This document shows positions 2,099 to 53,300 of a stretch of DNA of 64,000 bases, in pieces. The stretch's first letter is position 1. Every line of letters starts with the position of its first letter. A model generated the notes under the pieces. It was given only the letters and a program-made list of their open reading frames with translations, had not been told where the DNA came from and made no database searches. A program made the position numbers and the translations under genes. Source of the stretch: Comamonas sp. (GTDB lineage: Bacteria > Pseudomonadota > Gammaproteobacteria > Burkholderiales > Burkholderiaceae_C); NCBI GenBank assembly GCA_021166775.1, contig JAJPEQ010000010.1:124001-188000 (forward strand), given 5' to 3'.

Positions 2099-5000
2099 CT
2101 ACACCTTTTCAATGTTGACGAGGAAGGCCTTGAACTCCGGCGTCTGCGAGTTGGCGTCGCCCACGAACGGCGTCAACGCATTGGCCAGGTAACCATTCTT
2201 CGTCTGTCCCTTGAAGCCCCAGTGGAACGGTATGCCCACCAGGTGCACCTGCTTGCCATCCACGTTGAACGGCTTGATGCGCTTGGTGACCACGGCCTTG
2301 GTGATGATGCTCGCACGGATGCTGCTGATCTTCACCTTGTCACCCTTCTTGATGCCCTTCTCCTTCGCCAACTCTTCGCTGATCTCGACGAAGGCCTCGG
2401 GCTGCATGATGGCGTTGAGCCGCGCGTGCTTGGTCCAGGTGTGGAAGTGCTCGGTCAGGCGGTAGGTGGTCGCGGTGTAGGGGAACTCCTCCTTCTTGCC
2501 AAAGGCATCCATGTCGCTCTTGAACACCCGGGCGGCCGGATTGCTGATCGCCTTGGGGTTGTCCGGGTGCAGCGGATTCACGCCGATCGGCGTCTCGAAC
2601 GGTTCGTAGTGCTCGGGGAAGGGGCCGTCCGCCATGCCGATCGAGTGCAGCCGCGCCACGCCCTCGGGGTTCATGATGAACGAGCCCATGCCGATCTCCG
2701 GCTTGGCCGAGGGCAGCATGTCGGGCACGTCCGCGCCGGTCCAGGCCGTGCCGTTCCAGTACTCGTACTTCTTGTTGGGCGCCCAGGGCTTGCCGTCCTT
2801 GTCCGCGCTCGCGCGGTTGTAGAGGATGCGCCGGTTGGCCGGCCAGGAGAAGCCGAAGTTCTGGTACACGCCCCAGCCCGTGGGGTCCTCCAGGCTGCGG
2901 CGCGCCGTCAGGTTGCCGGCCTCGGACCAGGCCCCGGCGTACAGCCAGTTGCCGCAGGCGGTGGAGCCGTCGTCGCGCAGCATGGCGAAGCCCGGCACCT
3001 GCTGGCCCGCCTTCACGAGCACCGCGGGCGGTGCGGAAGGATTGGCCGGGTCGGGTGGCGCATGCACGTCGCTGATCGCCTTGCCGCTGATCTCCTTGAG
3101 CAGTTCGCTGGACGTGGGCTCATGCGGGATGACGTAGGGCCAGTCCAGGTTGAGGATGGGATCGGGGAAGGCACCGCCGTCCTTGGCGTACATCTCACGC
3201 AGCTTCACGAAGAGCTGAGCCATGATCTCCGAATCGACCTTGGCCTCGCCGGGCGGCTCGACGGCGGCTTCCTTCCAGATCGCGACGCGGCTGGAATTGG
3301 TGAAGCTGCCCTGCTCCTCGGCGAAGCACGCGGTCGGCAGACGGAAGACCTCGGTCTGGATGGACTCGGGCTTGACGTCGTTGAACTCGCCGAAGTTCTG
3401 CCAGAACTCGCCGGTTTCCGACTCGAGCGGATCGATCATCACGAGGTATTTCAACTTCATGAGCGCCGCCGACAGCTTGTTCTTGTTGGACACCGTGGCC
3501 AGCGGGTTGAAGCCCTGCGAGATGAAGCCGCCCACCTTGCCCTGGTGCATCAGCTCGAAGATGTGCATCACGTCAAAGCCACCGGGGAACTTGGGCACCC
3601 AGTCGTAGCAGAAGTCGTTTTCCTTGGTCGCGGCCTTGCCGTAGTAAGACTTCATCAGGCTCACGTAAAAGCGCGAGAAGTTGCTCCAGTAGTTGAACTG
3701 GTTGGGCCGCATGGCCTTGGGCGTGAGCCGCTTGATGTAGCCCTCGAACGTGGTGTCGGTATCCATGGGCGCACCCAGGTAGCCCGAGAGCACCTCGGCG
3801 TAGGCGTTCATGTCGGTCACGCCCTGCACGTTGGAATGCCCGCGCAGCGCGTTCACGCCGCCGCCCGGCCGTCCCATGTTCCCGAGCAGCAGCTGGATCA
3901 TCGCCATGGTGCGGATGTTCTGGCTGCCCACGGTGTGCTGCGTCCAGCCCAGCGCATACAGGATGGTGCTGGTCTTGTCGGGCGCGGACATCTCGCCCAG
4001 CATCTCGCAGATCTTCAGGAACTTGTCCTGCGGCGTACCGCAGATGCGCGAGACCATCTCGGGCGTGTAGCGGCTGTAGTGCTTCTTGAGCTGCTGGTAG
4101 ACGCACAGCGGATCCTGCATCGTCTCATCGACCTTGACAAAGCCGTCCTCGCCCAGCTGATAGCCCCAGGTGGACTTGTCGTACTTGCGCGTGGCCTCGT
4201 CGTAGCCGCTGAAGATGCCGTTTTCCAGCTTGAAGCCGGGCTTGAGCAGGAAGGTGGCGTCGGTGTTGAACTTGACGTAGTCGTGGTGGATCTTGTCGTT
4301 CGTGAGCAGCCAGTTGATGACGCCGCCCAGGAAGGCGATGTCGGTGCCGTTGCGAATCGGTGCATAGAAGTCCGCGACCGCGGACGTGCGGTTGAAGCGC
4401 GGGTCCACCGAAATCAGCCGGGCCTTGCGTTTCTGCATGGCCTCCACCACCCATTTGAAACCAACCGGGTGGGCTTCGGCGGCATTGCCGCCCATCACAA
4501 GAATCAGATCGGCATTTTTAATGTCGGTCCATGAATTGGTCATCGCTCCGCGACCGAATGTCGGGCCCAGACTGGTCACCGTCGGTGCGTGTCAGACGCG
4601 TGCTTGTGTATCGATTCCCACCATGCCAAGGGCGCGCGCGACCTTGACGGACAGATAGCTTGATTCGTTGCTCGAGGAACTGCAGATCAGAAACCCGGTG
4701 GAGAGCCAGCGGTTGACCGTGACGCCCGCATCGTTCTTCGTCTGGAAGTTCGCATCGCGGTCCGCCTTCATGTGCTTGGCGATGCGCGTGAGCGCCTCAT
4801 CCCAGGAAATGCGCTTCCATTCCTTGGTGCCGGGCTCGCGCACCTCGGGGAACTTGACGCGGGCCGGGGAGTTGATCATGTCCATCACGCCCGCGCCCTT
4901 GGGGCACAGCGAGCCGCGGCTCACCGGGTTGCTCGGGTCGCCCTCGACGTGGATGACCTTGCGCGTGGCGTTTTTCGCCTTGTCGCCCAAGGTGTAGATC

Positions 5001-5179
5001 AGCATGCCGCAACTCACCGAGCAGTACGGGCAGGTACTGCGGGTGACCGTGGCGGCCGTGAGTTTGTAAGCGCGTGTCTCGGCCAGCGCGGCGGTGGGCG
5101 AAAAACCCAGGGCCACCATGCTGGAGCCGATCAGCCCCGCCGCGCTGACGCGGAAGAACTGTCTTCGGTGCATGTCCAT
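2099..5179 (-). CDS. fdnG: Formate dehydrogenase-N alpha subunit, selenoprotein; in-frame TGA read as Sec at 4594..4592
   Basis: The two track ORFs (4592..5212 and 2099..4579) are in one frame separated only by TGA: ...DTQARV-[TGA][21 protein letters not shown]..., matching the FdnG Sec site. Tat signal [19 protein letters not shown] upstream of the ATG at 5179. Confidence 0.95.
4552..4594 (-). promoter_or_regulatory. Putative bacterial SECIS element after the Sec TGA
   Basis: Minus strand TGACACGCACCGACGGTGACCAGTCTGGGCCCGACATTCGGTCG can form a hairpin with an AGTCT apical loop (CC-AGTCT-GG), as in E. coli fdnG. Confidence 0.75.
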
Positions 5180-5342
5180 CGGAACTCTCCTTTCGGGTGT
5201 GGAGAAAATCATGCTCCGACGGACGCCAGAAACCCTTCCATCGGAAGATGCAAGGCCAGTCTAGGGTCTAAAAAAATACTGTCACCTAAGGTAAACCCTA
5301 GGGAAAGTCGCCGGTGCGCCTCACGCGCTCCCGGGCCGAATC

Positions 5343-37157: not shown

Positions 37158-38075
37158 CTATCCACGCAGGCGTTCGATCAGGCCGCCCAGCGCATCGAGC
37201 GACCCGAACTGGATGGCGATCTCGCCCATCTCGTCGGTGCGGCTGCCACGCTTGACGCGTTTTTTCACGCGCACCTCGACCTCGGCGGTGAGCAGATCGG
37301 AGAGCTCCTCCTCGACGCGCCGGATGTCGCGCGACTTCTCTTTCTTGGGCTTTTGCGGCACCAGCGTGAACTCGGCACCCAGCTTTTTGACAAGCCGCTC
37401 GGCCTCGCGCACCGAAAGCTTCTTCGCCACGATCTGGTTGCCCGCGGTGATCTGCGCTGCCCGCTCCAGCGCCAGCAGCGCCCGGGCGTGGCCCATATCG
37501 ATATCGCCGGCCATCAGCATGGTCTGCACCGGTTCGGCGAGGTTGAGCAGGCGCAGCAGATTGCTGGTGGCGCTGCGCGAGCGCCCCACCGCCTGCGCCA
37601 CCTGCTCGTGCGTGTAGCCGAACTCGCGGATCAGCCGCTGCAGACCCTGCGCCTCTTCCAGCGGATTGAGGTCTTCGCGCTGGATGTTCTCGATCAGCGC
37701 CATGGTGGCCGCCGCTTCATCGGCCACCTCGCGCACCAGCACCGGCACTTCGGCCAAACCAGCCAGGCGCGCCGCGCGAAAGCGGCGCTCGCCCGCGATG
37801 ATTTCGTACTTGCCCGCGTGCTCTCCCTGCGCGAGCTTGCGCACCAGAATGGGCTGCATGATGCCCTGCGTCTTGATGCTTTCGGCGAGCTCGTACAGCG
37901 CCCCCTCGTCCATGCGCGTGCGGGGTTGATAGACGCCGGGCACGATGGCATCGAGAGGCAGGCTGCCTGGTCCATCCGCCGCGCCGGCCAGAGGCGAGTC
38001 GGTGCGTTCAGGAACCTTGGGGCCGAGCAGCGCTTCCAGCCCACGACCCAGGCCCCTGGGTTTCTTCGTTGCCAT
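37158..38075 (-). CDS. parB: Chromosome partitioning protein ParB
   Basis: MATKKPRGLGRGLEALLG..., YEIIAGERRFRAARLAGL, REDLNPLEEAQGLQRLI. Confidence 0.96.
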   Translation of the reverse strand: MATKKPRGLGRGLEALLGPKVPERTDSPLAGAADGPGSLPLDAIVPGVYQPRTRMDEGALYELAESIKTQGIMQPILVRKLAQGEHAGKYEIIAGERRFRAARLAGLAEVPVLVREVADEAAATMALIENIQREDLNPLEEAQGLQRLIREFGYTHEQVAQAVGRSRSATSNLLRLLNLAEPVQTMLMAGDIDMGHARALLALERAAQITAGNQIVAKKLSVREAERLVKKLGAEFTLVPQKPKKEKSRDIRRVEEELSDLLTAEVEVRVKKRVKRGSRTDEMGEIAIQFGSLDALGGLIERLRG

Positions 38076-38083
38076 GTGCGTCC

Positions 38084-38857
38084 TTAACGATTGAGTTTGG
38101 TGCGAGCGACCAGCTCGCGGGCAAATTCCACAAAAGCCTGGCTCCCCTTGGCGCCGGGATCGAACACCACACCGGGCAGGCCGTAGCTCGGCGCCTCCGC
38201 AAGGCGCACGTTGCGCGGGATCACGGTGTCAAAGACCTTGTCGCCGAAATGCGCCTTGAGCTGCTCGCCCACCTGCTGCTGCAAGGTGATGCGCGGATCG
38301 AACATCACGCGCAGCAGACCGATGAGCTCGAGATCCGGATTGAGATTGGCATGAACCTGCTTGATGGTGTTGACAAGGTCGGTCAGCCCCTCGAGCGCGA
38401 AATACTCACACTGCATCGGCACGATCACGCCGTGCGCGCTGCACAGGCCGTTGAGGGTGAGCAGGCTCAGGCTGGGCGGGCAGTCGATGAGAACGAAGTC
38501 GTACTCCCCGTCGACCGCGGCAAGCGCCGCCTTCAGGCGGCCTTCGCGTTGATCCAGATCGACAAGCTCGACTTCCGCGCCCGAAAGCTCTCGATTGGCA
38601 CCCAGCACATGGTAGCCACACGCCTGGGTACGCGTCGCGGCCTCCCGCACCGTGGCGGACCCAAGAAGCACGTCGTACACCGACTGCCGCAGGGCCCGCT
38701 TGTCCACGCCCGAGCCCATGGTGGCGTTGCCCTGAGGGTCGAGGTCAACCATGAGCACGCGCTGGCCGATGCGGGCCAGACCCGCCGCCAGATTGACGGT
38801 GGTGGTGGTTTTGCCGACGCCGCCCTTCTGGTTGGCGATGCAGAAAATCTTGGCCAT
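38084..38857 (-). CDS. parA: Chromosome partitioning ATPase ParA
   Basis: MAKIFCIANQKGGVGKTTTTVNLAAGLA. Confidence 0.96.
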   Translation of the reverse strand: MAKIFCIANQKGGVGKTTTTVNLAAGLARIGQRVLMVDLDPQGNATMGSGVDKRALRQSVYDVLLGSATVREAATRTQACGYHVLGANRELSGAEVELVDLDQREGRLKAALAAVDGEYDFVLIDCPPSLSLLTLNGLCSAHGVIVPMQCEYFALEGLTDLVNTIKQVHANLNPDLELIGLLRVMFDPRITLQQQVGEQLKAHFGDKVFDTVIPRNVRLAEAPSYGLPGVVFDPGAKGSQAFVEFARELVARTKLNR

Positions 38858-38914
38858 GCTGCAGCAGTGAAAAACGGGAATGCGGCCACAAGAAACGCGG
38901 GCCAAGGAGTGCGG

Positions 38915-39580
38915 CTAGTGTAGTGCCATGCGGGGCCGCATCCACACGATGCACCGCTGGGCATCCAGTTGCGGCACCCGCAATGGTTCCACGTGAAACA
39001 CCGTCACATCGGATGGCAAGGCGGCCATTTCCTCAGTGGGCACCTTCCCCTTCATGGCAAGCCACACGCCCCGGGGCGCCAGCAGATGCCGCGAGCCGAT
39101 CGCGAAATCCCCAAGAGAAGCAAACGCGCGACTGCTCACCACATCGAATTCCCCAACCAGCTTCTCCACCCGGGCATGCACGCCGCGCAGGTTGCGCAAC
39201 TGCAAGGCGCCTGCCGCCTGCTGAATGAACGCGGCCTTCTTGGCCACGGCATCGACACAGCTCACCGCCAGTTCCGGCAGGCAGATGGCAAACACCACAC
39301 CTGGCAGGCCGCCACCCGAGCCCACATCCAGCAGGTGCGCAGACGCCGCAGCGTCCGGCCCTTGCAACCACCGGCGCAGCGAAACGACCGCGGCCAGACT
39401 GTCCAGCAGATGGTGCGTGAGCATCTCCGCCGGGTCACGCACGGACGTGAGGTTGTACACGCGGTTCCATTGCTGCAGCAACGAGAGGAACGCGAGCAAG
39501 CTCTCCTGTTGCGCCTCATGCAGCGCCAAGCCCAAGTCGCTCAAGCCCGCCAAGAGCGGTTCGCGCAAGGTCGCATTCAT
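38915..39580 (-). CDS. rsmG: 16S rRNA (guanine527-N7)-methyltransferase
   Basis: [42 protein letters not shown]; overlaps the mnmG stop. Confidence 0.94.
38985..39000. promoter_or_regulatory. parS: parS-like site in rsmG
   Basis: GGTTCCACGTGAAACA, 2 mismatches to TGTTTCACGTGAAACA. Confidence 0.75.
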
Positions 39581-41532
39581 GCAGCCTCACGCCTTTGCAT
39601 CTCCTTGAAGTGCCCCTTCTTCAGATGCACCAGCAGCAAGGACACGGCCGCCGGCGTGACACCCGAAATGCGCGAGGCCTGTCCCAGCGTCTGTGGCCGG
39701 TGCTTCTGCAGCTTCTGCCGCACCTCGAAGGACAGCGCGCTCACCTGCATGTAGTCCAGGTCCGCCGGGAGCGCCAGATTTTCGTAATGCGCGGCGCGCT
39801 CGACCTCTTCCTTCTGCCGGTCGATATAGCCCGCATACTTGGCGGCGATCTCCACCTGCTCTATCACCGGGCCATGCAGCTCACCCAGGGTTTCACGTGA
39901 AACATCGGCACTGGCGAAGCGCCCGTCACCCAAACCCATCAAGGCCTCGTAATCGACGCCTGGGCGGCGCAGGAGATCGAACAGGCTGTATTCATGCTCC
40001 AGCGCCTTGCCCAGCAGGCGCTCGCTTTCCTGCCCATCGACGATCCGGGGATTGACCCAGCATGACTTGAGCCGTTCGGTTTCACGTGAAACAGCATCGC
40101 GTTTGCGGCAGAACACATCCCAGCGCGCATCATCCACCAGGCCCATGCGCCGGCCGATCTCCGTCAGGCGCATATCGGCATTGTCCTCACGCAGCTGCAG
40201 ACGGAATTCCGCGCGGCTCGTGAACATCCGGTAGGGTTCGGTCACACCTTTCGTGATCAGGTCATCGACCAGCACGCCCAGATAGGCCTCATCGCGCCGG
40301 GGCAGCCAGGGCGCGTCGCCACGGCATTGCAACGCCGCGTTGAGTCCGGCGAACAGCCCTTGAGCCGCCGCCTCCTCATAACCGGTGGTGCCGTTGATCT
40401 GGCCCGCGAAATACAGACCGTGAATCTGCTGCGTCTCGAAACTGCTCTTGAGCGCGCGCGGATCGAAATAGTCGTATTCGATGGCGTAACCGGGGCGCAA
40501 GATGTGCGCGCGCTCCAGCCCTGCGATGCTGTGCACGAGCTGGTACTGAATGTCGAACGGCAGGCTGGTGGAGATGCCGTTGGGGTAGAACTCGTGGGTG
40601 GTGAGGCCCTCGGGTTCGAGAAAAATCTGGTGGCTTTCCTTGTCGGCAAAACGATGGATCTTGTCTTCCACGCTCGGACAATAGCGCGGGCCCGTTCCTT
40701 CGATCACCCCCGTGAACATCGGGCTGCGGTCCAGCCCCGAGCGGATGATTTCGTGCGTGCGCGCATTGGTGTTGGTGATCCAGCACGGCATCTGGCGCGG
40801 GTGCATCTGCGCCCGGCCCATGGTGCTGAACACCGGCAGGATGCCCTCATTCACCCCACCGGGCATGCCATCTCCCGGCTGCTCGGTGCAGCGCGAAAAG
40901 TCGATGGTGCGGCCGTCCAGGCGTGGCGGCGTGCCGGTTTTCAGGCGCCCTTGCGGCAGTTGCAGCTCCTTCAGGCGGCTGGCCAGGCTCAGTGCCGGAG
41001 GGTCTCCCGCCCGTCCGCCCTGGTAGTGGTTGAGTCCCACGTGAATCTTGCCGTTGAGGAAGGTGCCGGCCGTGAGCACCACGGCGCGCGCGCGAAAGCG
41101 CACCCCCACTTGCGTGACCGCGCCCACTACACGGTCGCCTTCGAGCATCAGGTCGTCAACGGCCTGCTGAAACAGCCAGAGGTTGGGCTGGTTTTCCAGA
41201 CGGGAACGAATCGCCCCCTTGTACAGCAGCCGGTCGGCCTGTGCCCGGGTGGCACGCACCGCCGGGCCCTTGCTGCTGTTGAGAATGCGAAACTGGATCC
41301 CCGCCTCGTCGGTGGCAAGCGCCATCGCGCCGCCCAGTGCATCCACTTCCTTGACCAAGTGCCCCTTGCCGATGCCGCCTATGCTGGGGTTGCAGCTCAT
41401 CTGCCCCAGCGTTTCGATGTTGTGCGTGAGCAGCAGCGTTCTGCAGCCCATGCGCGCGCTCGCCAGCGCCGCTTCGGAGCCGGCGTGACCGCCGCCCACG
41501 ACAATGACATCAAATTCCTCGGGGTACAACAT
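39577..41532 (-). CDS. mnmG: tRNA uridine-5-carboxymethylaminomethyl modification enzyme MnmG (GidA)
   Basis: [62 protein letters not shown]. Confidence 0.97.
39889..39904. promoter_or_regulatory. parS: parS-like site in mnmG
   Basis: GGTTTCACGTGAAACA, 1 mismatch to consensus. Confidence 0.85.
40078..40093. promoter_or_regulatory. parS: parS-like site in mnmG
   Basis: GGTTTCACGTGAAACA, 1 mismatch to consensus. Confidence 0.85.
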
Positions 41533-41588
41533 GTGAGCGCACATCAAAAGGCAGGGGGCGTTATTGTCCCACCGCACCGCTTCCGGTG

Positions 41589-41604
41589 TGTTTCACGTGA
41601 AACA
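41589..41604. promoter_or_regulatory. parS: parS site, perfect match, in the mnmG/OYE divergent gap
   Basis: TGTTTCACGTGAAACA, 16/16. Confidence 0.95.
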
Positions 41605-41623
41605 GAACCTCCGAACCATCGAC

Positions 41624-42739
41624 ATGACCTCTCTTTTCGATCCCCTGCAGGCCGGTGATCTGCATCTGGCCAACCGCATCGCCATGGCGCCATGCACCCG
41701 CAACCGCTCGCCCGGCGGCATCCCGGTGGCGATGAATGCCGAGTACTACGCGCAGCGCGCGGGCAACGGCCTCATCATCACCGAAGGCACGGCCATCAGC
41801 CACCAGGGTCAGGGCTATGCCGACGTGCCCGGCCTATATGCGCCCGAGCAGCTTGCGGGCTGGAAAAGGGTCACCGACGCCGTGCATGCCCGAGGCGGAT
41901 GCATCGTCACGCAGCTCTGGCATGTGGGCCGGGTTTCGCATGTCTCCCTGCAGCCCGGCGGCCAGGCGCCGGTGGCTCCATCGGCCATCACGGCGCAGGC
42001 GCGCACCTATATCCTCGACGAAACCACCGGCGCCGGACACTTCGCGCCCACATCCGAGCCGCGTGCATTGGCACTTCAGGAGCTGCCCGCCATCATCGCA
42101 AGCTACGCCCGGGCGGCGCACGACGCGGTGCACATCGCCGGCTTTGACGGCGTGGAGCTGCATGGCGCCAACGGCTACCTGATCGACCAATTCCTCAAGG
42201 ACGGCAGCAATCACCGCACGGACGCGTACGGCGGCAGCATCCACCACCGCATCCGCTTTGCCGTCGAGGCCGTGCGCGCCGTCGTCGAGGCCGTGGGCGG
42301 TGGGCGCGTCGGTATCCGCCTCTCCCCCGTCACACCCTCCAACGACGCACGCGACAGTCATCCGCAAGCCCTGTTCGAGCAACTCGTGCAGGCCCTGGCC
42401 CCGCTTGGTCTGGCCTACATCCACGTGATCGAGGGCGCGACAGGCGGGCCGCGCGTGATCGAGGATCGCCCCTTCGATGACGCCGCGTTCAAAGCGGCTT
42501 ATCGCAACGCAGGCGGCACAGGCGCCTGGATGGTGAACAACGGCTACACGCGGGAGATGGCTCTGCAGGCCGTGGCGAGCGGCGCTGCGGACGTGGTGGC
42601 TTTCGGCCGCGACGCGATTGCCAACCCCGATCTGGCCGAGCGCCTGAAGCGCGGCGCGCCGCTCAACGCCTGGGACAAGACCACCTTCTATGGCGGCACG
42701 AGCAAGGGCTATACCGATTACCCGGCACTCACGGCCTGA
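41624..42739 (+). CDS. Old Yellow Enzyme family alkene reductase (NemA-like)
   Basis: LFDPLQAGDLHLANRIAMAPCTRNRSPGGIP, GFDGVELHGANGYLIDQFLKDGSNHRTDAYGGS. Confidence 0.93.
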   Translation: MTSLFDPLQAGDLHLANRIAMAPCTRNRSPGGIPVAMNAEYYAQRAGNGLIITEGTAISHQGQGYADVPGLYAPEQLAGWKRVTDAVHARGGCIVTQLWHVGRVSHVSLQPGGQAPVAPSAITAQARTYILDETTGAGHFAPTSEPRALALQELPAIIASYARAAHDAVHIAGFDGVELHGANGYLIDQFLKDGSNHRTDAYGGSIHHRIRFAVEAVRAVVEAVGGGRVGIRLSPVTPSNDARDSHPQALFEQLVQALAPLGLAYIHVIEGATGGPRVIEDRPFDDAAFKAAYRNAGGTGAWMVNNGYTREMALQAVASGAADVVAFGRDAIANPDLAERLKRGAPLNAWDKTTFYGGTSKGYTDYPALTA

Positions 42740-42751
42740 GTTCGCGCCCCG

Positions 42752-43168
42752 TCAGGACGCCAGCTCGTCCAGGATGGGGCATTCGGGCCGGTCATCACCA
42801 TGGCAGCAACTCACCAGGGCCTGCAGACTGCGCTGCATGTCCTGCATTGCGGCGATGCGCTGCTCCAGCTTCTCGATATGCTTGAGCGCGATCTGCTTGA
42901 CCTGGCTGCTGGCGCGGCTGCGGTCCTGCCACAGGCCGAGCAAAGCCGAGATCTCTTCGATGGAAAAGCCCAGGTCGCGCGCGCGGCGGATGAAACGCAG
43001 CGTGTGCACATCCGCCTCGGTGTACTGGCGATAGCCGCTGTCCGTGCGAGCCACCCTGGGTAGAAGCCCGAGCGATTCATAGTGGCGAATCATGCGCGCC
43101 GAGACAAGCGAGCGCGCAGCCGCCTCGCCTATGGCCACCGGCCCGTGCCCGGCACCGCCCGGGTTCAT
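42752..43168 (-). CDS. cueR: MerR family Cu(I)-responsive regulator (CueR-like)
   Basis: MerR HTH (IGEAAARSLVSARMIRHYESLGLLP) and C-terminal CHGDDRPEC metal-binding loop (CX7C). Confidence 0.87.
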   Translation of the reverse strand: MNPGGAGHGPVAIGEAAARSLVSARMIRHYESLGLLPRVARTDSGYRQYTEADVHTLRFIRRARDLGFSIEEISALLGLWQDRSRASSQVKQIALKHIEKLEQRIAAMQDMQRSLQALVSCCHGDDRPECPILDELAS

Positions 43169-43362
43169 GCGGCGACCTCGTAGCCCTCCTCGCGGATGGC
43201 ATTGGCGATCGCGTCGCGCGACTTCTCGCTGTCCACATCCACCCGACCCGTGGACAGGTCCACCTTGACCACGGCCTCGGTGTCCACCTTGCGCACGGCA
43301 TGCACGATGGCCCGCTCGCAGTGGCCACAGGTCATGCCCTTGACATCGAACTGGTATTGCAT
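43165..43362 (-). CDS. copZ: Heavy-metal-associated copper chaperone CopZ
   Basis: 66 aa; MQYQFDVKGMTCGHCERAIVHAVRK. Confidence 0.9.
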   Translation of the reverse strand: MQYQFDVKGMTCGHCERAIVHAVRKVDTEAVVKVDLSTGRVDVDSEKSRDAIANAIREEGYEVAA

Positions 43363-43403
43363 GGTGCGCGCCTCCTTCAGGCTTGAATCAATGACGGGTG
43401 ACG

Positions 43404-43434
43404 ATTCTGTGGTCTGACATGGTGACAAGGTCAA
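43404..43434 (-). promoter_or_regulatory. Candidate MerR/CueR-type promoter of copZ-cueR
   Basis: -35 TTGACC, 19-bp spacer TTGTCACCATGTCAGACCA, -10 CAGAAT. Confidence 0.6.
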
Positions 43435-43448
43435 GGTTCCAGCGCACG

Positions 43449-45524
43449 TCAGGGATAAATCAGGATCTTGTTGAGCGCCGGGAAATGCTTTTCGAGCTTG
43501 AGCGGCAACTGGTCCAGGTAGGGTGTGTGGGCCGATTCTCCCTCGCGCGCCGAGACCAGGATCAGCAGATCGGTGTCGGACATCTTGCGAAACACGATGA
43601 AGAATTCATCCCAATCGCTGAACTCCCTGTACTCCACCTTCAACGCGAGCTTTTGCTTCTTCAGACTTTCACGAACCGCCTGGTGCGTCGCCCTGCCGCA
43701 GTTCAACTGCACGGGCACCGAATGCTCGGCAGCGAGCTTGGCGATCTTGCGCCAGTACAGATCGAAATGCTCCGCCGTCTCGGCCAGTGGCGGAAGGATG
43801 ACGAAGATACCGGTGTACTTGCTCGACGGCGCATCCAGATGGCAGACAAACACGGTCTTGCGGGTCTGGTAGAGGACGCTGCCGAATTTGTTGCCGACAA
43901 AACCGCCGATGAAACCGGTTTTCTGCGGCCAGCCCATGACGATCAGGTCCGCGCCGATCTCGCGCGCCGTGCGGCTGATGCCGACGCCGGGGTGGTGATC
44001 TATCGTGGCCATGACGTTGAGCTCCACGTCCGCCCCGCTCGCCTCGGCGCGCACGTCCTCCAGCGCCTGCTTGGCCCGTGCCACGTTGTCCTCGGCTTCT
44101 TCGGTATTCGGCACCACGGTCACCACCGCCAGAGGATGGCTGGATTTCTTCTCGCGCACCAGCACCGCCAGGCGAACCAGATTTTCAGATTCCGTGGTGT
44201 CCGACAACGAGATGAGGATCTGCTCATCGTTGTGGTTGCCATTGCGCGCCATGTCCTGTGCGTGCTCGGTCGTGCTTTCGAGCTGACGCGCGGCCTTCTC
44301 GGTGATGATGGAGGCGACCACGCACGAGACGAGGATGATCACGATGATGGCGTTGATGACGCGGTCGTCGACGATACCGGCGCGGTAACCCACGATCACC
44401 ACCGCCAGCGTGGCCGCCGCGTGCGACGAACTCAGGCCGAAGATCAGGTCGCGCTGCTCTGCCCTGAGGCGAAAGAGCCGCGCCGTCAGGTCCGCGGCCA
44501 GGTACTTCCCGGCAAACGCCACGATCGCCAGCGCCACGGCCGTCAAGAGCACGGTGAAGCCGTCGAACACCACGCGCACGTTGACGATCATGCCCACGCT
44601 GATGAGGAAGAAGGGGATGAACAGCGAATTGCCGAGGTATTCGATGCGGTTCATCAGCGCCGAGGAATTGGGAATCTGGCGGTTGAGCGCCAGGCCCGCG
44701 GCGAACGCGCCGATGATGGGTTCCAGACTCGCCACCTCGGAGAGAAAGGCCGAAAGGAACACGATGGCCAGCACGAAGACGTAGTGCGAGTGTTTCTGGT
44801 GCGCCTGCCTTTCGAAGAAACGCCTGGCGATCCACGGCACCACCAGGGCCATGAAGGCGACAAAAACCACGAGCGAGATCACGAGGCGCGTCCAGAATTG
44901 CGACGTGAGATCGCCGTTGTGCGCGCCCAGAATCACGGCCAGCACCACCAGCACCCCGGTGTCGGTCAAGATGGTGCCGCCCACGGTGATGGGCACGCTC
45001 GGGTCCTTGGTCACGCCGTACTTGCTGGCGATCGGGTAGGTCACGAGCGTGTGCGTGGCAAAAATGCTGGAAACGAGCAAACTCGCCGAAACATCCATGC
45101 CCAGCAGATAGTGGCAGACGGGATAACCGAGGGCAAACGGAATCGTGAAGGTGGCGATGCCGAAGACGATGCTGCGATTGGCGTTGGCCCTGAACTCGAT
45201 CAGATTGAGCTCCAGCCCCGCGAGAAACATGATGTAGAGCAGGCCGATGGTCGAGAACACATCGACGAACAGGCTCTTCTCCAGGAGATTGAAGCCGTGC
45301 GGGCCGATCAATATGCCGGCCAGAATGAGCCCGATGATGTCCGGCGTGCGCACCTTCTCCAGCAGAATGGGTGCCAGCAGGATGATGAAAAGGATGAGCG
45401 AAAAAATCAGAACCGGGCTGTTCAGCGGCAACTGAAATTGCTCTGTCAGCTTTGCGATGATGGGTTCCATGAGCTGCAATGGGCCGATCAAGGCCATCCT
45501 GGGACAAGCGCGCGATTGTGGCAT
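43449..45524 (-). CDS. CPA2-type cation/proton antiporter with C-terminal UspA-like domain; start may be 45494 or 45470
   Basis: LLAPILLEKVRTPDIIGLILAGILIGPHG, IVGGTILTDTG-type core, multi-TM; C-terminal universal-stress-like region. Confidence 0.85.
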   Translation of the reverse strand: MPQSRACPRMALIGPLQLMEPIIAKLTEQFQLPLNSPVLIFSLILFIILLAPILLEKVRTPDIIGLILAGILIGPHGFNLLEKSLFVDVFSTIGLLYIMFLAGLELNLIEFRANANRSIVFGIATFTIPFALGYPVCHYLLGMDVSASLLVSSIFATHTLVTYPIASKYGVTKDPSVPITVGGTILTDTGVLVVLAVILGAHNGDLTSQFWTRLVISLVVFVAFMALVVPWIARRFFERQAHQKHSHYVFVLAIVFLSAFLSEVASLEPIIGAFAAGLALNRQIPNSSALMNRIEYLGNSLFIPFFLISVGMIVNVRVVFDGFTVLLTAVALAIVAFAGKYLAADLTARLFRLRAEQRDLIFGLSSSHAAATLAVVIVGYRAGIVDDRVINAIIVIILVSCVVASIITEKAARQLESTTEHAQDMARNGNHNDEQILISLSDTTESENLVRLAVLVREKKSSHPLAVVTVVPNTEEAEDNVARAKQALEDVRAEASGADVELNVMATIDHHPGVGISRTAREIGADLIVMGWPQKTGFIGGFVGNKFGSVLYQTRKTVFVCHLDAPSSKYTGIFVILPPLAETAEHFDLYWRKIAKLAAEHSVPVQLNCGRATHQAVRESLKKQKLALKVEYREFSDWDEFFIVFRKMSDTDLLILVSAREGESAHTPYLDQLPLKLEKHFPALNKILIYP

Positions 45525-45543
45525 GCAGCTGCTCGCGCAGGAC

Positions 45544-45574
45544 TTGACTCTCTCATGATGTCAAAGTTTACGCT
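45544..45574 (+). promoter_or_regulatory. Candidate MerR/CueR-type promoter of copA
   Basis: -35 TTGACT, 19-bp spacer CTCTCATGATGTCAAAGTT, -10 TACGCT; ACTCTCTCATGATGTCAAAGT is an imperfect dyad (7/10 pairs). Confidence 0.6.
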
Positions 45575-45606
45575 GCCGACCGTTCGTTCACCCTTGTGGA
45601 GCCACC

Positions 45607-47856
45607 ATGACGACGACCGCTGATCCCTCCGCCACCGACACGCTCGACCTGGGCGTGGGCGGCATGACCTGCGCCAGTTGCGTCTCGCGCGTGGAACGCG
45701 CGCTGCGCAAGGTCCCGGGCGTCGCCGATGCCGCGGTCAATCTGGCCACGGAGTCCGCGCACCTGAAGCTGGCTGCGCCCTCCCCCGACATCGACCGGCT
45801 CGCGCGCCGCGCCATCCGCGACGCCGGGTACGAGCCGCGCTCGCTCGCCGAACAGCAGGCACAGCTCGATCGCGAAGGCCCATGGACCGGCTTCGCACCC
45901 GTGGGTCTGGGGCTGCTGCTGTCCGCCCCGCTGGTGCTGCCCATGTTCGGCGACCTGTTGGGCCGGCACTGGATGCTCCCGGCCTGGCTGCAGTTTCTTC
46001 TCACCACGCCCGTGCAATTCATCCTCGGGGCGCGCTTTTACAAGGCCGGGTGGCATGCGGCCCGCGCGCTCACGGGCAACATGGATCTGCTCGTGGCGCT
46101 GGGCACGAGCGCAGGGTATGGCCTCTCGCTCTGGCTGTGGCTCACCGCGCCCGCGGGACACACGCCACACCTGTACTTCGAAGCATCCGCCGTCGTGATC
46201 ACCCTGGTGCTGCTGGGCAAATGGCTGGAGGCCCGCGCCAAGCACCAGACCACGGCCGCGATACGCGCCCTGCATGCCCTGCGCCCGGAAACCGTCCATC
46301 TGCTCGGGCGCGATGGCGAAGTCGACGTGCCGGTCGCCGAAATCATGGTGGGCGATCATCTCGTGGTGCGCCCCGGCGAGCGCATCCCGGTCGATGGACG
46401 AGTGATCGAGGGCGAAACCCAGGTGGACGAATCCATGCTCACGGGCGAACCGCTGCCGGTGGCGCGCGGCGCGGGCGGCCCTCTCACCGGCGGCTCGATC
46501 AACGGTGACGGCCGCATCGTGCTCAGCGTCACCGCCACGGGCAGCGAAACGGTGCTGGCGCGCATCATTCGCCTCGTGCAGGACGCGCAGGCGGCCAAGG
46601 CGCCGATTCAGCGCCTCGTCGATCAGGTCTCTGCCGTGTTCGTGCCGGCCGTCCTCCTGATCGCCTGTCTCACGCTGCTCGGCTGGCTGTGGTTCGGCTC
46701 GGGGCTGGAGACGGCGCTGATCCGCGCCGTGGCCGTGCTCGTCATCGCCTGCCCCTGCGCGCTCGGTCTGGCCACGCCCGCGGCCATCATGGCGGGCACG
46801 GGGGCCGCTGCGCGCCACGGCATCCTGATCAAGGACGCGCAGGCGCTGGAGATCGCGCACAAGGTGGCGACCGTCGCCTTCGACAAGACCGGCACGCTCA
46901 CGGTGGGCCAGCCCAGGCTGACGGACTTCGTCGCCGCCGCCGGTGAAGACGAAGCGGCGTTGCTGTCGGCCATCGCCAGCGTGCAAAGCGGCAGCGAGCA
47001 CCCGCTTGCCCGCGCGGTTCAGAGCGCGGCGCGCGAACGCGGGCTCTCATTCGTGCCACCCGATGCCGTGCGCGCCGTGCCTGGCCGCGGCACCGAGGGC
47101 GAGGTGCAGGGCCAGAGCTACCTCATCGGCAGCCTGCGCTGGATGCGGGAGCTGGACGCCCATTTTGACGGTCTGGAGGCGAAGGCCGCCTCCCTGCAGG
47201 CGCAGGGCGCCACACTTTCCGCCGTGGCCGAGCGCTCTGCCCAGGGCCTGCGCATCCGCGCGCTGCTCGCCTTCGGCGACGAGCCCAAACCCGGCGCCCG
47301 GCAAGCCCTCGCCGCGCTGCGCGCGCGCGGCCTGCGCAGCGTGATGATTTCGGGCGACAACCGCGGCGCGGCCGAGGCCATGGCCAGGCGCCTGGGGCTG
47401 CAGCCGGAACAGGGGGAAGTTCTCGCCGAAGTGCTCCCCGCCGACAAGGCTGCCGTCGTGCGACGGCTGCAGGCTGGCGGCACGGTGGTGGCCATGGTGG
47501 GTGACGGCGTGAACGACGCGCCGGCGCTGGCCGCTGCCGATGTCGGCATCGCCATGGGCAACGGCACGGATGTGGCCATGCACGCGGCCGGCATCACGCT
47601 GATGCGCGGAGACCCCGCCCTCGTGGCCGCGGCGCTGGACATCTCGCACCGCACCGTGATGAAAATCCGCCAGAACCTGTTCTGGGCCTTCATCTACAAC
47701 GTCGCCGGCATTCCGCTCGCGGCGCTGGGTTACCTGAACCCGGTCATTGCCGGTGCCGCGATGGCCATGAGCTCGGTGAGCGTGATGGGCAATGCGCTGC
47801 TGCTGCGCCGCTGGCATCCGCGAGGGGACAATGCCGGGGCAACCGAGCCCCGTTGA
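45607..47856 (+). CDS. copA: Copper-translocating P1B-type ATPase
   Basis: [51 protein letters not shown]. Confidence 0.95.
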
Positions 47857-47860
47857 AACC

Positions 47861-48562
47861 ATGCCCGACCAGATTCTGGGAACCATCCACGCCGTCCTGC
47901 ACGGTCGCGCCCAGCCGTATCGGCATACGGATGGCCGCCCGGGTGGCCTCAGCGCCATCGCCAAGCAAGCGGTGTCCGGGCCCGTCGCGGCGACCGCGCT
48001 GGGTCTTGAAGGCGACGAACAAGGCGATCCGCGCGTACACGGCGGCCCGGACAAGGCCATTCACCACTACGCCCGCGAGCATTACCAGGCCTGGCGCGCC
48101 GAGCTCGGCGAGTTGCCGGTGCTGGCCGCGCCTCCTGCGTTTGGCGAGAACTTCTCCAGCACCGGCGTGACGGAATCGGACATCTGCCTGGGTGATCAGG
48201 TGCGCGCGGGCACCTGCCTGCTCGAGGTCTCGCAAAGCCGCCAGCCCTGCTGGAAGCTCAACGTGCGCTTCGGCGTGGCCGACATGGCGCTGCGCGTGCA
48301 GCGCAGCGGGCGCACCGGGTGGTATTACCGCGTGCTCGAGCCGGGGACCGTTCAAGCCGGCGATGAGCTGCAACTGATGGCCCGCCCCCACCCCGAATGG
48401 CCGTTGTCACGCGTGATCCATCTGCTCTACACCGACGTGCTCAACCTGGCGGACCTGCGCGCGCTGTCCAAACTGCAACTGCCCGCCTCATGGGAAAAGC
48501 TGGTGGGCCGGCGGCTTGATAGCCACAGACTGGAAAACTGGGACAGGCGCACGCTTGGATAA
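47861..48562 (+). CDS. MOSC-domain protein (YiiM-like)
   Basis: GLEGDEQGDPRVHGGPDKAIHHYAREHY, FGENFSSTGVTESDICLGDQVRAG, SQSRQPCWKL. Confidence 0.9.
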   Translation: MPDQILGTIHAVLHGRAQPYRHTDGRPGGLSAIAKQAVSGPVAATALGLEGDEQGDPRVHGGPDKAIHHYAREHYQAWRAELGELPVLAAPPAFGENFSSTGVTESDICLGDQVRAGTCLLEVSQSRQPCWKLNVRFGVADMALRVQRSGRTGWYYRVLEPGTVQAGDELQLMARPHPEWPLSRVIHLLYTDVLNLADLRALSKLQLPASWEKLVGRRLDSHRLENWDRRTLG

Positions 48563-48589
48563 GGCGGTGCATGCTGCTACCCTAGTGGC

Positions 48590-49090
48590 ATGCTCACACG
48601 CGCGCTTCTGCCCTTTGCAGCCGCATGGCTTCTGGTGGCCTGTGGCTCCGCTCCTCCGGTTTCTTCGTATGAGCCCTACGATCTGAGCACGACGGCACCC
48701 ACGCCCTCCAGCGTGCTCTCGGACGGGCAGGCGAGCGACATCGCCATCAACGCGCTCGGCCTGGTCGGCACGCCCTATCGCTACGGTGGCAACACGCCCG
48801 AGGGGGGGTTTGATTGCAGCGGGCTGATCGGCTACGTCTACCGCAACCAGACCGACATGAGACCGCCGCGCACGGTGGCGCAGCTCAACGACTACGGACA
48901 GCCGCTTTCGCGCACCCAGCTGCGCAGCGGCGACCTGGTGCTGTTCGGCCGCGGCCAGCCAACGCACGCGGGTATCTACGTGGGCCAGGGACGTTTCGTG
49001 CATGCGCCATCCACAGGCGGCACGGTACGGCTGGATCGGCTCGACGGCCCCTACTGGTCGCGTCAGATGGCGAGCTTTCGCAGGCCGTGA
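48590..49090 (+). CDS. NlpC/P60 family lipoprotein endopeptidase
   Basis: Lipobox LLVACGS; GGNTPEGGFDCSGLIGYVYR, GDLVLFGRGQPTHAGIYVGQGRFVHA. Confidence 0.92.
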   Translation: MLTRALLPFAAAWLLVACGSAPPVSSYEPYDLSTTAPTPSSVLSDGQASDIAINALGLVGTPYRYGGNTPEGGFDCSGLIGYVYRNQTDMRPPRTVAQLNDYGQPLSRTQLRSGDLVLFGRGQPTHAGIYVGQGRFVHAPSTGGTVRLDRLDGPYWSRQMASFRRP

Positions 49091-50448: not shown

Positions 50449-51354
50449 GTGTTCAAGAATCTCATCGTTTATCGCATCGCCCCCTCATCGCAGCTCGAAC
50501 TTCAACGGCTGCAGGCGGCCCTGGCGGCCGCACCCTTCGCGCCCTGTGGCGCCACGCAGGAGCAATCGGGCGGCTGGTGCCCGCCCCGCGCGCAAGAGCA
50601 TGGGGCGCTCGTCGAATCCATTGCCGGGCACTGGATTGCCTGCTGGCAGACGGAAACCCGCATGCTGCCCGCCGCCGTGGTGGCACAGCGCGTGGACGAA
50701 AAAGTGCAGCGCATCACCCAGGAAAGCGGGCGCACCCCCGGGCGCAAGGAGCGGCGTGACCTCAAGGACGAAGCGCGCCTCGATCTGCTGCCGCTGGCCT
50801 TCACGCAGCGGCGCAGCATCATGGTCTGGATCGCCCCCCGCCAGCGCCTGCTGGCGCTTGACACCAGCAACCAGACCCGGGCCGACGCCGTGGTGACCGC
50901 TTTGGTCAAATCCGTTGACGGCCTGGCGCTGGCGCTGCTCGATACCCGGCAAAGTCCGCAGGCCGCCATGAGCACCTGGCTGCTGGAGCAACAGGCGCCA
51001 GCGGGCTTTTCCATCGACAACGAGTGTGAGCTCAAGTCCACCGCCGCGGACAAGGCCGTGGTGCGCTATGCCCGCCACCCGCTCGACATTGCCGAGGTGC
51101 CCGAGCACATCCGCGCAGGCAAGCTGCCCACGCGCCTGGCGATGACCTGGCAGGGCCGCGTGAGCTTCGTGCTGACCGAGGGACTGCAACTGCGCCGCGT
51201 GGCGCTGCTGGAAACCGAGCAGCAGGAAAGCCAGCGCAGCGACGACAATTTCGACGCCGACGCGATGCTGAGCACCGGCGAGCTCAGCCAGATGCTGCCG
51301 GATCTCCTCGCCGCTCTCGGTGGAGAACAAGTCGGCGGGCAGACCGGCGCGTGA
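50449..51354 (+). CDS. rdgC: Recombination-associated protein RdgC
   Basis: GTG start, (M)FKNLIVYRIA...; length and RKERRDLKDEARLDLLPLAF typical of RdgC. Confidence 0.92.
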   Translation: MFKNLIVYRIAPSSQLELQRLQAALAAAPFAPCGATQEQSGGWCPPRAQEHGALVESIAGHWIACWQTETRMLPAAVVAQRVDEKVQRITQESGRTPGRKERRDLKDEARLDLLPLAFTQRRSIMVWIAPRQRLLALDTSNQTRADAVVTALVKSVDGLALALLDTRQSPQAAMSTWLLEQQAPAGFSIDNECELKSTAADKAVVRYARHPLDIAEVPEHIRAGKLPTRLAMTWQGRVSFVLTEGLQLRRVALLETEQQESQRSDDNFDADAMLSTGELSQMLPDLLAALGGEQVGGQTGA

Positions 51355-51358
51355 CACC

Positions 51359-52612
51359 ATGGCATTGAACGCGGTCTGGATCGGCTTTTTCCTCATCGCG
51401 TTCCTCACCGCCTGCGTGCGCTGGGCGCTGGGCGATACCGGCATCTTCCAGCAGCTGCTCACCGCCATGTTCGACGGCGCGCGCTCGGGCTTCGAAATCT
51501 CGCTGGGTCTGGCGGGCATCATGGCGCTGTGGCTGGGCCTGATGAACATCGGCGAAAAGGCGGGCATGGTGCAGCTGCTCGCCCGCCTGGCCCAGCCGCT
51601 GCTGCAACGGCTCTTTCCCGAAGTGCCCGCCGGCCACCCCGCGCAGGGCGCGATGACGCTCAACATCTCGGCCAATCTGCTGGGCCTGGACAACGCCGCC
51701 ACGCCGCTGGGCCTGACGGCGATGAAAGAGCTGCAGACGCTCAATCGCGAGCCCCCGGGCACGGCAAGCCACGCGCAGATCATGTTCGTGGTGATGAACA
51801 CGGCCGGGCTCACGCTCATCCCCACCTCGGTGATCGCCATCCGCCAGAGCGTGGCGCTGCAGCAGCACGTGGGCGCGGGCTTCAACGCCGCCGACATCTT
51901 TCTGCCCACGCTCATCGTCACCTTCATCGGGCTGCTCACCGGCGTGCTCGCGGTGGCCGTGGCGCAGCGCCTGCCACTGTGGCGCCCCCGCCTGCTGCTG
52001 CCGGTGCTGGCCGTCGCGGGCGTGCTGCTGGGCAGCGTGGCCCTGCTCGCGCGCCTGCCGGCCGAGCAGGCCGCACGCATCGCAGGCACGACGGGTGCGG
52101 CCGTCATCCTGGCCATCGTCGCGCTGTTCCTGCTGGCTGGCGTGTGGCGGCGCATCAACGTCTACGACGCCTTCATCGACGGCGCGCGCCAGGGTTTTGA
52201 CGTGGCCGTGCAGATCGTGCCCTACCTCATCGCCATCCTGGTCGCCATCGGCGTGTTCCGGGCCTCAGGCGGCATGGATGCCCTCCTTGCCGTACTGGGC
52301 CATGGCATCGCCGCGCTGGGCCTGAACACCGATTTCCTGCCCGCGTTGCCCGTGGGTCTCATGAAAGTGCTCTCGGGCGCCGGTGCGCGCGGCCTGATGA
52401 TCGATGTGCTGCAGACCTACGGCGTCGATTCCTTCGTCGGGCGGCTGGCCAGCATCATCCAAGGCTCGACCGAGACGACGTTCTACGTGCTGGCGGTGTA
52501 CTTCGGCAGCGTGGGCGTCAGGCACACGCGCCACGCGCTGGTGTGCGCGCTGCTCGCCGACGCCGTCGGGCTGGTGGCCGCCATCGTCGTGGGGTACGCC
52601 ATGCTGCGCTGA
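51359..52612 (+). CDS. Nucleoside recognition domain membrane protein (SpmA/SpmB-like fusion)
   Basis: Two Gate domains: MTLNISANLLGLDNAATPLGLTAMKELQ and FDVAVQIVPYLIAILVAIGVFRASGGMD. Confidence 0.85.
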   Translation: MALNAVWIGFFLIAFLTACVRWALGDTGIFQQLLTAMFDGARSGFEISLGLAGIMALWLGLMNIGEKAGMVQLLARLAQPLLQRLFPEVPAGHPAQGAMTLNISANLLGLDNAATPLGLTAMKELQTLNREPPGTASHAQIMFVVMNTAGLTLIPTSVIAIRQSVALQQHVGAGFNAADIFLPTLIVTFIGLLTGVLAVAVAQRLPLWRPRLLLPVLAVAGVLLGSVALLARLPAEQAARIAGTTGAAVILAIVALFLLAGVWRRINVYDAFIDGARQGFDVAVQIVPYLIAILVAIGVFRASGGMDALLAVLGHGIAALGLNTDFLPALPVGLMKVLSGAGARGLMIDVLQTYGVDSFVGRLASIIQGSTETTFYVLAVYFGSVGVRHTRHALVCALLADAVGLVAAIVVGYAMLR

Positions 52613-52620
52613 GGCATGCG

Positions 52621-52870
52621 GTTTGTCCCCGGACCTACCATCACCATTAGATTGCAGTAGAGGTATTTAAAAGATAGTTGTAGTAGTAGGTTCTTGCGAC
52701 CCGATGGGACAAGTCCATTTTTCGTTTGAATTTCAACGAGCTGCGCGCTGTGATAACTGTGCTTCGAAGACGCGTGGGTACGGGATGCACATGGGGACAA
52801 GTCGCCATGGTGCATCCAGCCTGTGGATAACGATCCGTTTGTCCCGCCTTGCTGCCCAGCTTATCCACAG
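52621..52870. other. Putative replication origin-like region (oriC candidate)
   Basis: Two perfect DnaA boxes, TGTGGATAA (52822-52830) and TTATCCACA (52861-52869), in inverted orientation; AT-rich TATTTAAAAGA next to TAGTTGTAGTAGTAG (DnaA-trio-like, 52675-52689); four GGGACAA/TTGTCCC motifs. Confidence 0.6.
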
Positions 52871-52880
52871 CGTGGCCGGT

Positions 52881-53300
52881 TCAGCGCAGCAGGATCAGTT
52901 GGGGCGCCGCATCCGCGCCGCTCCAGACAATGGCGTTCTGATCCCAGCGCTCGCCCAGCCGCCGGGCGGTTTCCAGATCGAGCCCGAGCACGAGCAGGCT
53001 GGCCTCTGCCGGCCAGCCGTTGCTCGGGTGCTGGCCCACGCCATCGATGCAAGGCAGGCCCAGCGCGTTTACGTGCGCCCTCAGCCGCTGCAGACGATCG
53101 GCATTGGTGGTTGCGTCGCTGGCCTGGCTGCGTGGGTTGACGGCGGTGATGAAGGCGCTGCAGGCCACGCCATGGCGCCGGTGCAGTGCCAGAAGGGCGG
53201 CGCTGGCCACCCCGATGCGCAAGGTGAAAGGTGCGGCGGCGTCCACGCGGTAGTGCGTCTGCGCGTAGGCCTGCAGCAGATGGCGGGGCAGCGTGCTCAT
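52881..53300 (-). CDS. DUF3293-like protein
   Basis: 139 aa; LLQAYAQTHYRV...AFITAVNPRSQ...NADRLQRLRAHVNALG...EASLLVLGLDLETARRLGERWDQNAIVW. Confidence 0.7.
   Translation of the reverse strand: MSTLPRHLLQAYAQTHYRVDAAAPFTLRIGVASAALLALHRRHGVACSAFITAVNPRSQASDATTNADRLQRLRAHVNALGLPCIDGVGQHPSNGWPAEASLLVLGLDLETARRLGERWDQNAIVWSGADAAPQLILLR

Follow-up and report, generated by a model that had tools for sequence, protein, structure and literature searches.

Introduction

The oriC of Escherichia coli combines DnaA boxes, an IHF site and an AT-rich element, with mnmG in its region. This origin is separate from dnaA (PMC8287927), and in Cupriavidus metallidurans CH34 a skew switch of chromosome 1, accompanied by three perfect DnaA boxes, has been reported at a distance of about 90 kb from dnaA (PMC2864759). 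A few bacteria have been listed as having putative double origins (PMC4403523), and the exact position of the chromosome 1 origin of Burkholderia cenocepacia has been reported as unclear (PMC4948915). The criteria for a basal unwinding system (BUS) are trios with a central A and a nearby DnaA box (PMC8287927).

In this report we focus on a gap at positions 52613-52880 of a 64,000-nucleotide stretch of a Comamonas sp. genome (hereafter the window), which very probably serves that genome as its only chromosomal replication origin (oriC), to judge from its anatomy, its relatives and strand asymmetry. Origins uncoupled from dnaA being already known from E. coli and Cupriavidus CH34, this oriC is another such case.

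Results

The gap stands out by its composition, 52.6% GC against 66.7% for the whole window, which bears out the original prediction of an AT-richer non-coding gap of ~270 bp. It is bordered by the gene for a Gate-domain (nucleoside recognition, PF07670) protein (51320-52612, + strand), which adjoins the element in many Comamonadaceae, and by a convergent gene for a DUF3293 protein (52881-53300, - strand). A caution that the neighbouring genes show no co-directional polarity away from the gap also held, the flanking genes converging on it. All the motifs that had been listed from the letters are present, namely CTGTGGATAA at 52821, TTATCCACAG at 52861, the AT-rich and trio motifs TATTTAAAAGA at 52664 and TAGTTGTAGTAGTAG at 52675, and the third shared motif GGGACAAGT at 52706 and 52794. 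The perfect DnaA box TTATCCACA occurs only twice in the window, in agreement with the claim that there is no other.

The whole element, of ~230 bp (52655-52874, + strand, as delimited by the R1 model described below), is composed of an AT-rich segment, TAG trios, five DnaA-box positions and a weak IHF-like site, an order of boxes, trios and AT-rich part that is that of a DnaA-dependent origin. The AT-rich unwinding segment gaggtatttaaaagatagttg (52660-52680), conserved as a column across 37 aligned elements, lies beside the boxes, and the 30 bp directly preceding the trios are 70% AT. The trio run that follows, TAG-TTG-TAG-TAG-TAG (52675-52689, + strand; 3'-GAT-5' trios), occupies near-invariant columns of the same alignment, and its last three units provide the three or more trios with a central A that a BUS calls for. 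The rule further asks for a DnaA box with no more than two mismatches within 16 bp of the trios. The best 9-mer there, ATGGGACAA (52704-52712, - strand), lies 14 bp from the trios and has four mismatches; this trio-proximal box is degraded in the window genome and good in most relatives, its position and 14-bp spacing being kept, and most of the 37 elements do carry a box of the required quality with a spacer of 14. The window element therefore appears to resemble a working BUS by its parts and yet fails the published strict rule.

Beyond this position lie a weak IHF-like site, WATCAANNNNTTR (52731-52743, + strand; 11/13 positions matching in the window genome, which has three HU/IHF-family genes), a weak DnaA-box-like sequence, TGTGATAAC (52749-52757, - strand), which aligns near the second box of relatives, and another with two mismatches in near-invariant columns, TGGGGACAA (52792-52800, - strand). 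Two exact DnaA boxes in inverted orientation (52822-52830, - strand; 52861-52869, + strand), their arms separated by 30 nt, complete the element, so that two perfect boxes and one box with two mismatches fall within 80 bp. The 2.9-Mb genome has ten perfect boxes, two of them in the gap, and the next-closest pair lies 347 bp apart; the chance of a pair within 50 bp is of the order of 0.002, a rough figure for ten such sites in a genome of 2.9 Mb. The next-closest pair (G000:C11:163269-163624, at 163269 and 163616) was considered as an origin and rejected, R1 having no match there. This pair adjoins an ORF that, by eye, resembles a Mor-type phage activator.

Alignment of the gap across relatives, one of the checks proposed with the original prediction, revealed conservation. 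Relatives were gathered via the gene adjoining the gap (80 named loci), and the same ~230-bp element is present at many Comamonadaceae loci. The alignment of 37 elements shows a constant order (AT-rich stretch, ATAGTnGTAGTAGTAG, spacer, DnaA box, IHF-like position, GGGGACAA box, perfect-type box and inverted box) with fixed spacing of the parts, the spacer between trios and box being exactly 14 bp in most rows. A sequence-only model made from this alignment, R1, gave a single match in the whole genome at E<=10 (52655..52874, 104.8 bits, E 4.6e-30), which is not independent because the window is among the R1 training sequences. Within the GTDB family of the window genome, R1 matched 196 of the 201 genomes and 125 of the 126 genera; in other families of the order it matched 11 of 58 genomes, mostly weakly. 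A blastn search of 60 family genomes with the gap as query had returned no match, the sequence being too diverged, although the profile later found the element. The adjoining genes vary among relatives while the element stays. One locus 97-99% identical to that of the window, L012 (JAIOJA010000054.1), is labelled Planctomycetota MAG_44 and is probably a mis-binned Comamonadaceae contig.

The identity of the element is best illuminated by relatives in which it occupies the canonical origin site. In 11 family genomes it fills the dnaA-dnaN gap, with the boxes on the dnaA side and the trios and AT-rich part on the dnaN side, which is the order of Bacillus subtilis. An independent profile, for which these 11 gaps between dnaA and dnaN in other genomes of the family were the only training set, has one significant match in the window, at 52666-52873 (35.8 bits, E 6.3e-10), and also matches the corresponding site in Comamonas sp. 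SCN 67-35; everything else in the searched contigs, and the reversed controls, scored at most 5.8 bits. The window element is a homologue of the element found between dnaA and dnaN in other family genera, and so of its relatives' origin at the canonical site.

The predicted uncoupling from the rpmH/dnaA neighbourhood is likewise borne out. In the window genome dnaA-dnaN-gyrB lies on a separate contig, C5, which aligns with the dnaA surroundings of SCN 67-35; its dnaA-dnaN gap measures 80 bp and contains no R1 element, and upstream of dnaA, toward rpmH, there is one perfect box (C5:7476) and no comparable element. The element is 104 kb from dnaA on one contig in SCN 67-35 and 112 kb from it in C. 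badia, so the separation of ~100 kb is a measurement from two same-genus genomes, the two contigs of the window genome being unjoined. The parAB genes and four parS-like sites that had been noticed near the gap are indeed there, about 11-15 kb to its left: the cluster of parB, parA, rsmG and mnmG spans 37158-41577 (- strand), and the four 16-bp parS sites start at 38985, 39889, 40078 and 41589 (span 38985-41604). Between mnmG and the origin (41564-49087) are genes for a cation exchanger with a universal-stress domain, a heavy-metal P-type ATPase and NlpC/P60 proteins. Elsewhere in the window, a SECIS_3 element (RF01989, 72 bits; 4539-4597, - strand) where ORFs 2099-4579 and 4592-5212 meet suggests a putative selenocysteine-containing formate dehydrogenase split by TGA.

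The GC-skew minimum coincides with the element in three relatives. The cumulative minimum is at 354.0 kb in C. badia (over 380 kb; element start 354.6 kb, dnaA 466 kb), at 129.0 kb in SCN 67-35 (element 126.4 kb, dnaA 230 kb) and at 389.5 kb in the complete family genome G093 (elements 394.6 and 398.8 kb, dnaA 134.9 kb). The distance from minimum to element is 0.6-5 kb, and in all three genomes dnaA sits inside one skew arm, 104 and 112 kb (same genus) or 260 kb (G093) from the element. Sampled skew in G093 stays mainly above zero between about 0.4 and 2.05 Mb and mainly below zero after that, its sign reverting near 2.1 Mb, about half a chromosome from the minimum. A skew minimum at dnaA together with an unconserved gap had been named as the outcome that would speak against an origin here, and the opposite was found. 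Acidovorax sp. 210-6, where a steep fall ends at the elements and gives way to a plateau up to about 4.10 Mb, and G016, which has no clear pattern, are uninformative. On the window's own contig, C8, the skew is -0.022 over 92 kb left of the gap and +0.002 over 51 kb right of it, with the cumulative minimum at C8:196.5 kb, 20 kb off the gap, and a flat right side; this is consistent with an origin at the gap but not sharp. The skew of C5 is predominantly negative to the left and right of dnaA, apart from a single small positive bin at the gene, and KOPS are too sparse on the genome's own contigs for a reading of polarity.

Gene order next to the element differs in SCN 67-35. To the right of the origin, a segment at about 145-186 kb of G113:C8 runs in the opposite direction to its counterpart in the window genome and C. 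badia, and on the window genome's side one break falls no more than about 1.6 kb from the element. We considered and rejected an inversion in the window genome; it more likely occurred in SCN 67-35, because C. badia has the window genome's order.

In many relatives the element is present in two or three complete copies separated by 0.3-20 kb. Twin elements with the same orientation, both of which contain trios and boxes, are found in L023 (7136-7362 and 11334-11564), L050 (6164-6386 and 6715-6946) and L053 (6816-7041 and 7142-7373), and three copies in G004, G005 and G135. The window genome has a single copy, so the twin, or bipartite, arrangement of many relatives is not found here. We scored 26 genomes for the element and dnaA (24 single-contig family genomes, Diaphorobacter aerolatus and Acidovorax sp. 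210-6): the element is beside dnaA in 10 and 14-260 kb away in 16. Among the 16 unlinked genomes, 11 have more than one full-length copy, and among the 10 linked ones a single genome does (one-sided Fisher P about 0.005, uncorrected for relatedness). In a tree of 76 elements, in which deep branches are weak, bootstrap values unsettled and only the grouping by copy reliable, the upstream and downstream copies of Acidovorax, Alicycliphilus, Diaphorobacter and others, as well as the two tandem Paracidovorax copies, mostly group by copy and not by genome. Recent copies would group by genome, and the pattern suggests that twin origins may have been maintained for a long time in separate lineages across genera.

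Discussion

The original prediction had left two options, a chromosomal origin on the one hand and a relict or secondary origin on the other. The first is supported by the only copy in the genome, the homology to the dnaA-dnaN element and the skew minima in three relatives. The second finds no support in an element that is the sole copy, near-universal and a dnaA-dnaN homologue.

The alternative that survives best, a very unlikely one, is that the true origin is still at rpmH-dnaA and that the gap is a datA/DARS-like titration or reactivation site or a relict origin. The perfect box upstream of dnaA (C5:7476) and the decay of the trio-proximal box in the Comamonas group speak for it; however, there is no change of skew sign at dnaA in the same-genus genomes, in G093 or on C5, the dnaA-dnaN gap is empty, and the AT-rich/trio half is conserved as much as the boxes, although a titration site could do without it. 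Even less probable is a secondary or horizontally acquired origin, such as an integrated plasmid or chromid, beside another main origin: single copy, near-universality in the family and homology to the family's dnaA-dnaN element all argue against it, despite the precedent of a parB-adjacent origin in Dehalobacter among the putative double origins listed in bacteria (PMC4403523). Least credible of all is that the conservation reflects a regulatory region (a promoter, a terminator or an RNA leader) and that the DnaA boxes are incidental, since the gap, while directly abutting two genes, is 3' of both, their convergence excluding a promoter role, has no Rfam match and keeps its element when the neighbours differ among relatives.

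If the gap is oriC, its anatomy and work on the BUS (PMC8287927) allow a mechanism to be proposed. DnaA would load on the two perfect boxes (52822, 52861) and extend over the weaker boxes, with IHF-type bending at the IHF-like position. A DnaA-ATP filament would then form on the TAG trios of the top strand and melt the TATTTAAAAGATAG segment, leading to helicase loading and the departure of two forks, and ParB at the four parS sites, 11-14 kb off, would segregate the copied origin. DnaA may still load at the degraded trio-proximal box (four mismatches). In this lineage the element would have parted from dnaA-dnaN and now lie about 100 kb away, near parAB. Taking the relatives together, we tentatively propose, with less than even confidence, that oriC was often duplicated on leaving dnaA-dnaN, that two complete modules 0.3-20 kb apart persisted as separate, divergent lineages across genera and both work as parts of one composite or doubly firing origin, and that the Comamonas group reverted to, or kept, one.

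These findings have several implications. First, the family now has an alignable oriC signature that allows origins to be placed in draft genomes; family genome records are often numbered from dnaA, and several complete genomes used here start at dnaA. The signature may also help to place the origin of B. cenocepacia chromosome 1 (PMC4948915). Second, dnaA-linked and dnaA-unlinked versions of one homologous origin within a family offer a natural comparison for the role of linkage. Third, the twin copies make it directly testable whether a bacterial chromosome can keep two complete origin modules side by side. In the open-access literature we found no description of the family-wide element or of Comamonadaceae twin origins.

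Comparison with known systems highlights both similarities and differences. Like the dnaA-dnaN oriC of family genera (Aquabacterium soli, L212) and of B. subtilis, the window element has DnaA boxes, spacer, TAG/GAT trios and AT-rich segment in order, with clear sequence homology within the family, whereas here it lies about 100 kb or more from dnaA and has a decayed trio-proximal box. The CH34 origin region, as far as the accessible part of its account goes, shares the skew switch and perfect DnaA boxes distant from dnaA; that part mentions neither trios nor homology to the dnaA-dnaN element (PMC2864759). CH34 belongs to another genus and similarity is much lower, R1 having only weak matches of 35-43 bits in C. 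pauculus UM1 (G231:C1:6731-6949 and 151802-152007), about 245 and 100 kb from dnaA. These two matches resemble the two DnaA-box clusters reported for CH34 (PMC2864759). As in the bipartite origins of B. subtilis and Helicobacter pylori, relatives bear at least two box clusters close together, but each of their copies has its own trios and AT-rich part, and the window genome has one copy. With E. coli oriC the window origin shares uncoupling from dnaA, boxes, an IHF-like site, an AT-rich part and mnmG in the region. The difference is that the unwinding module of E. coli scores weakly (PMC8287927), whereas the TAG trios in the window are clear.
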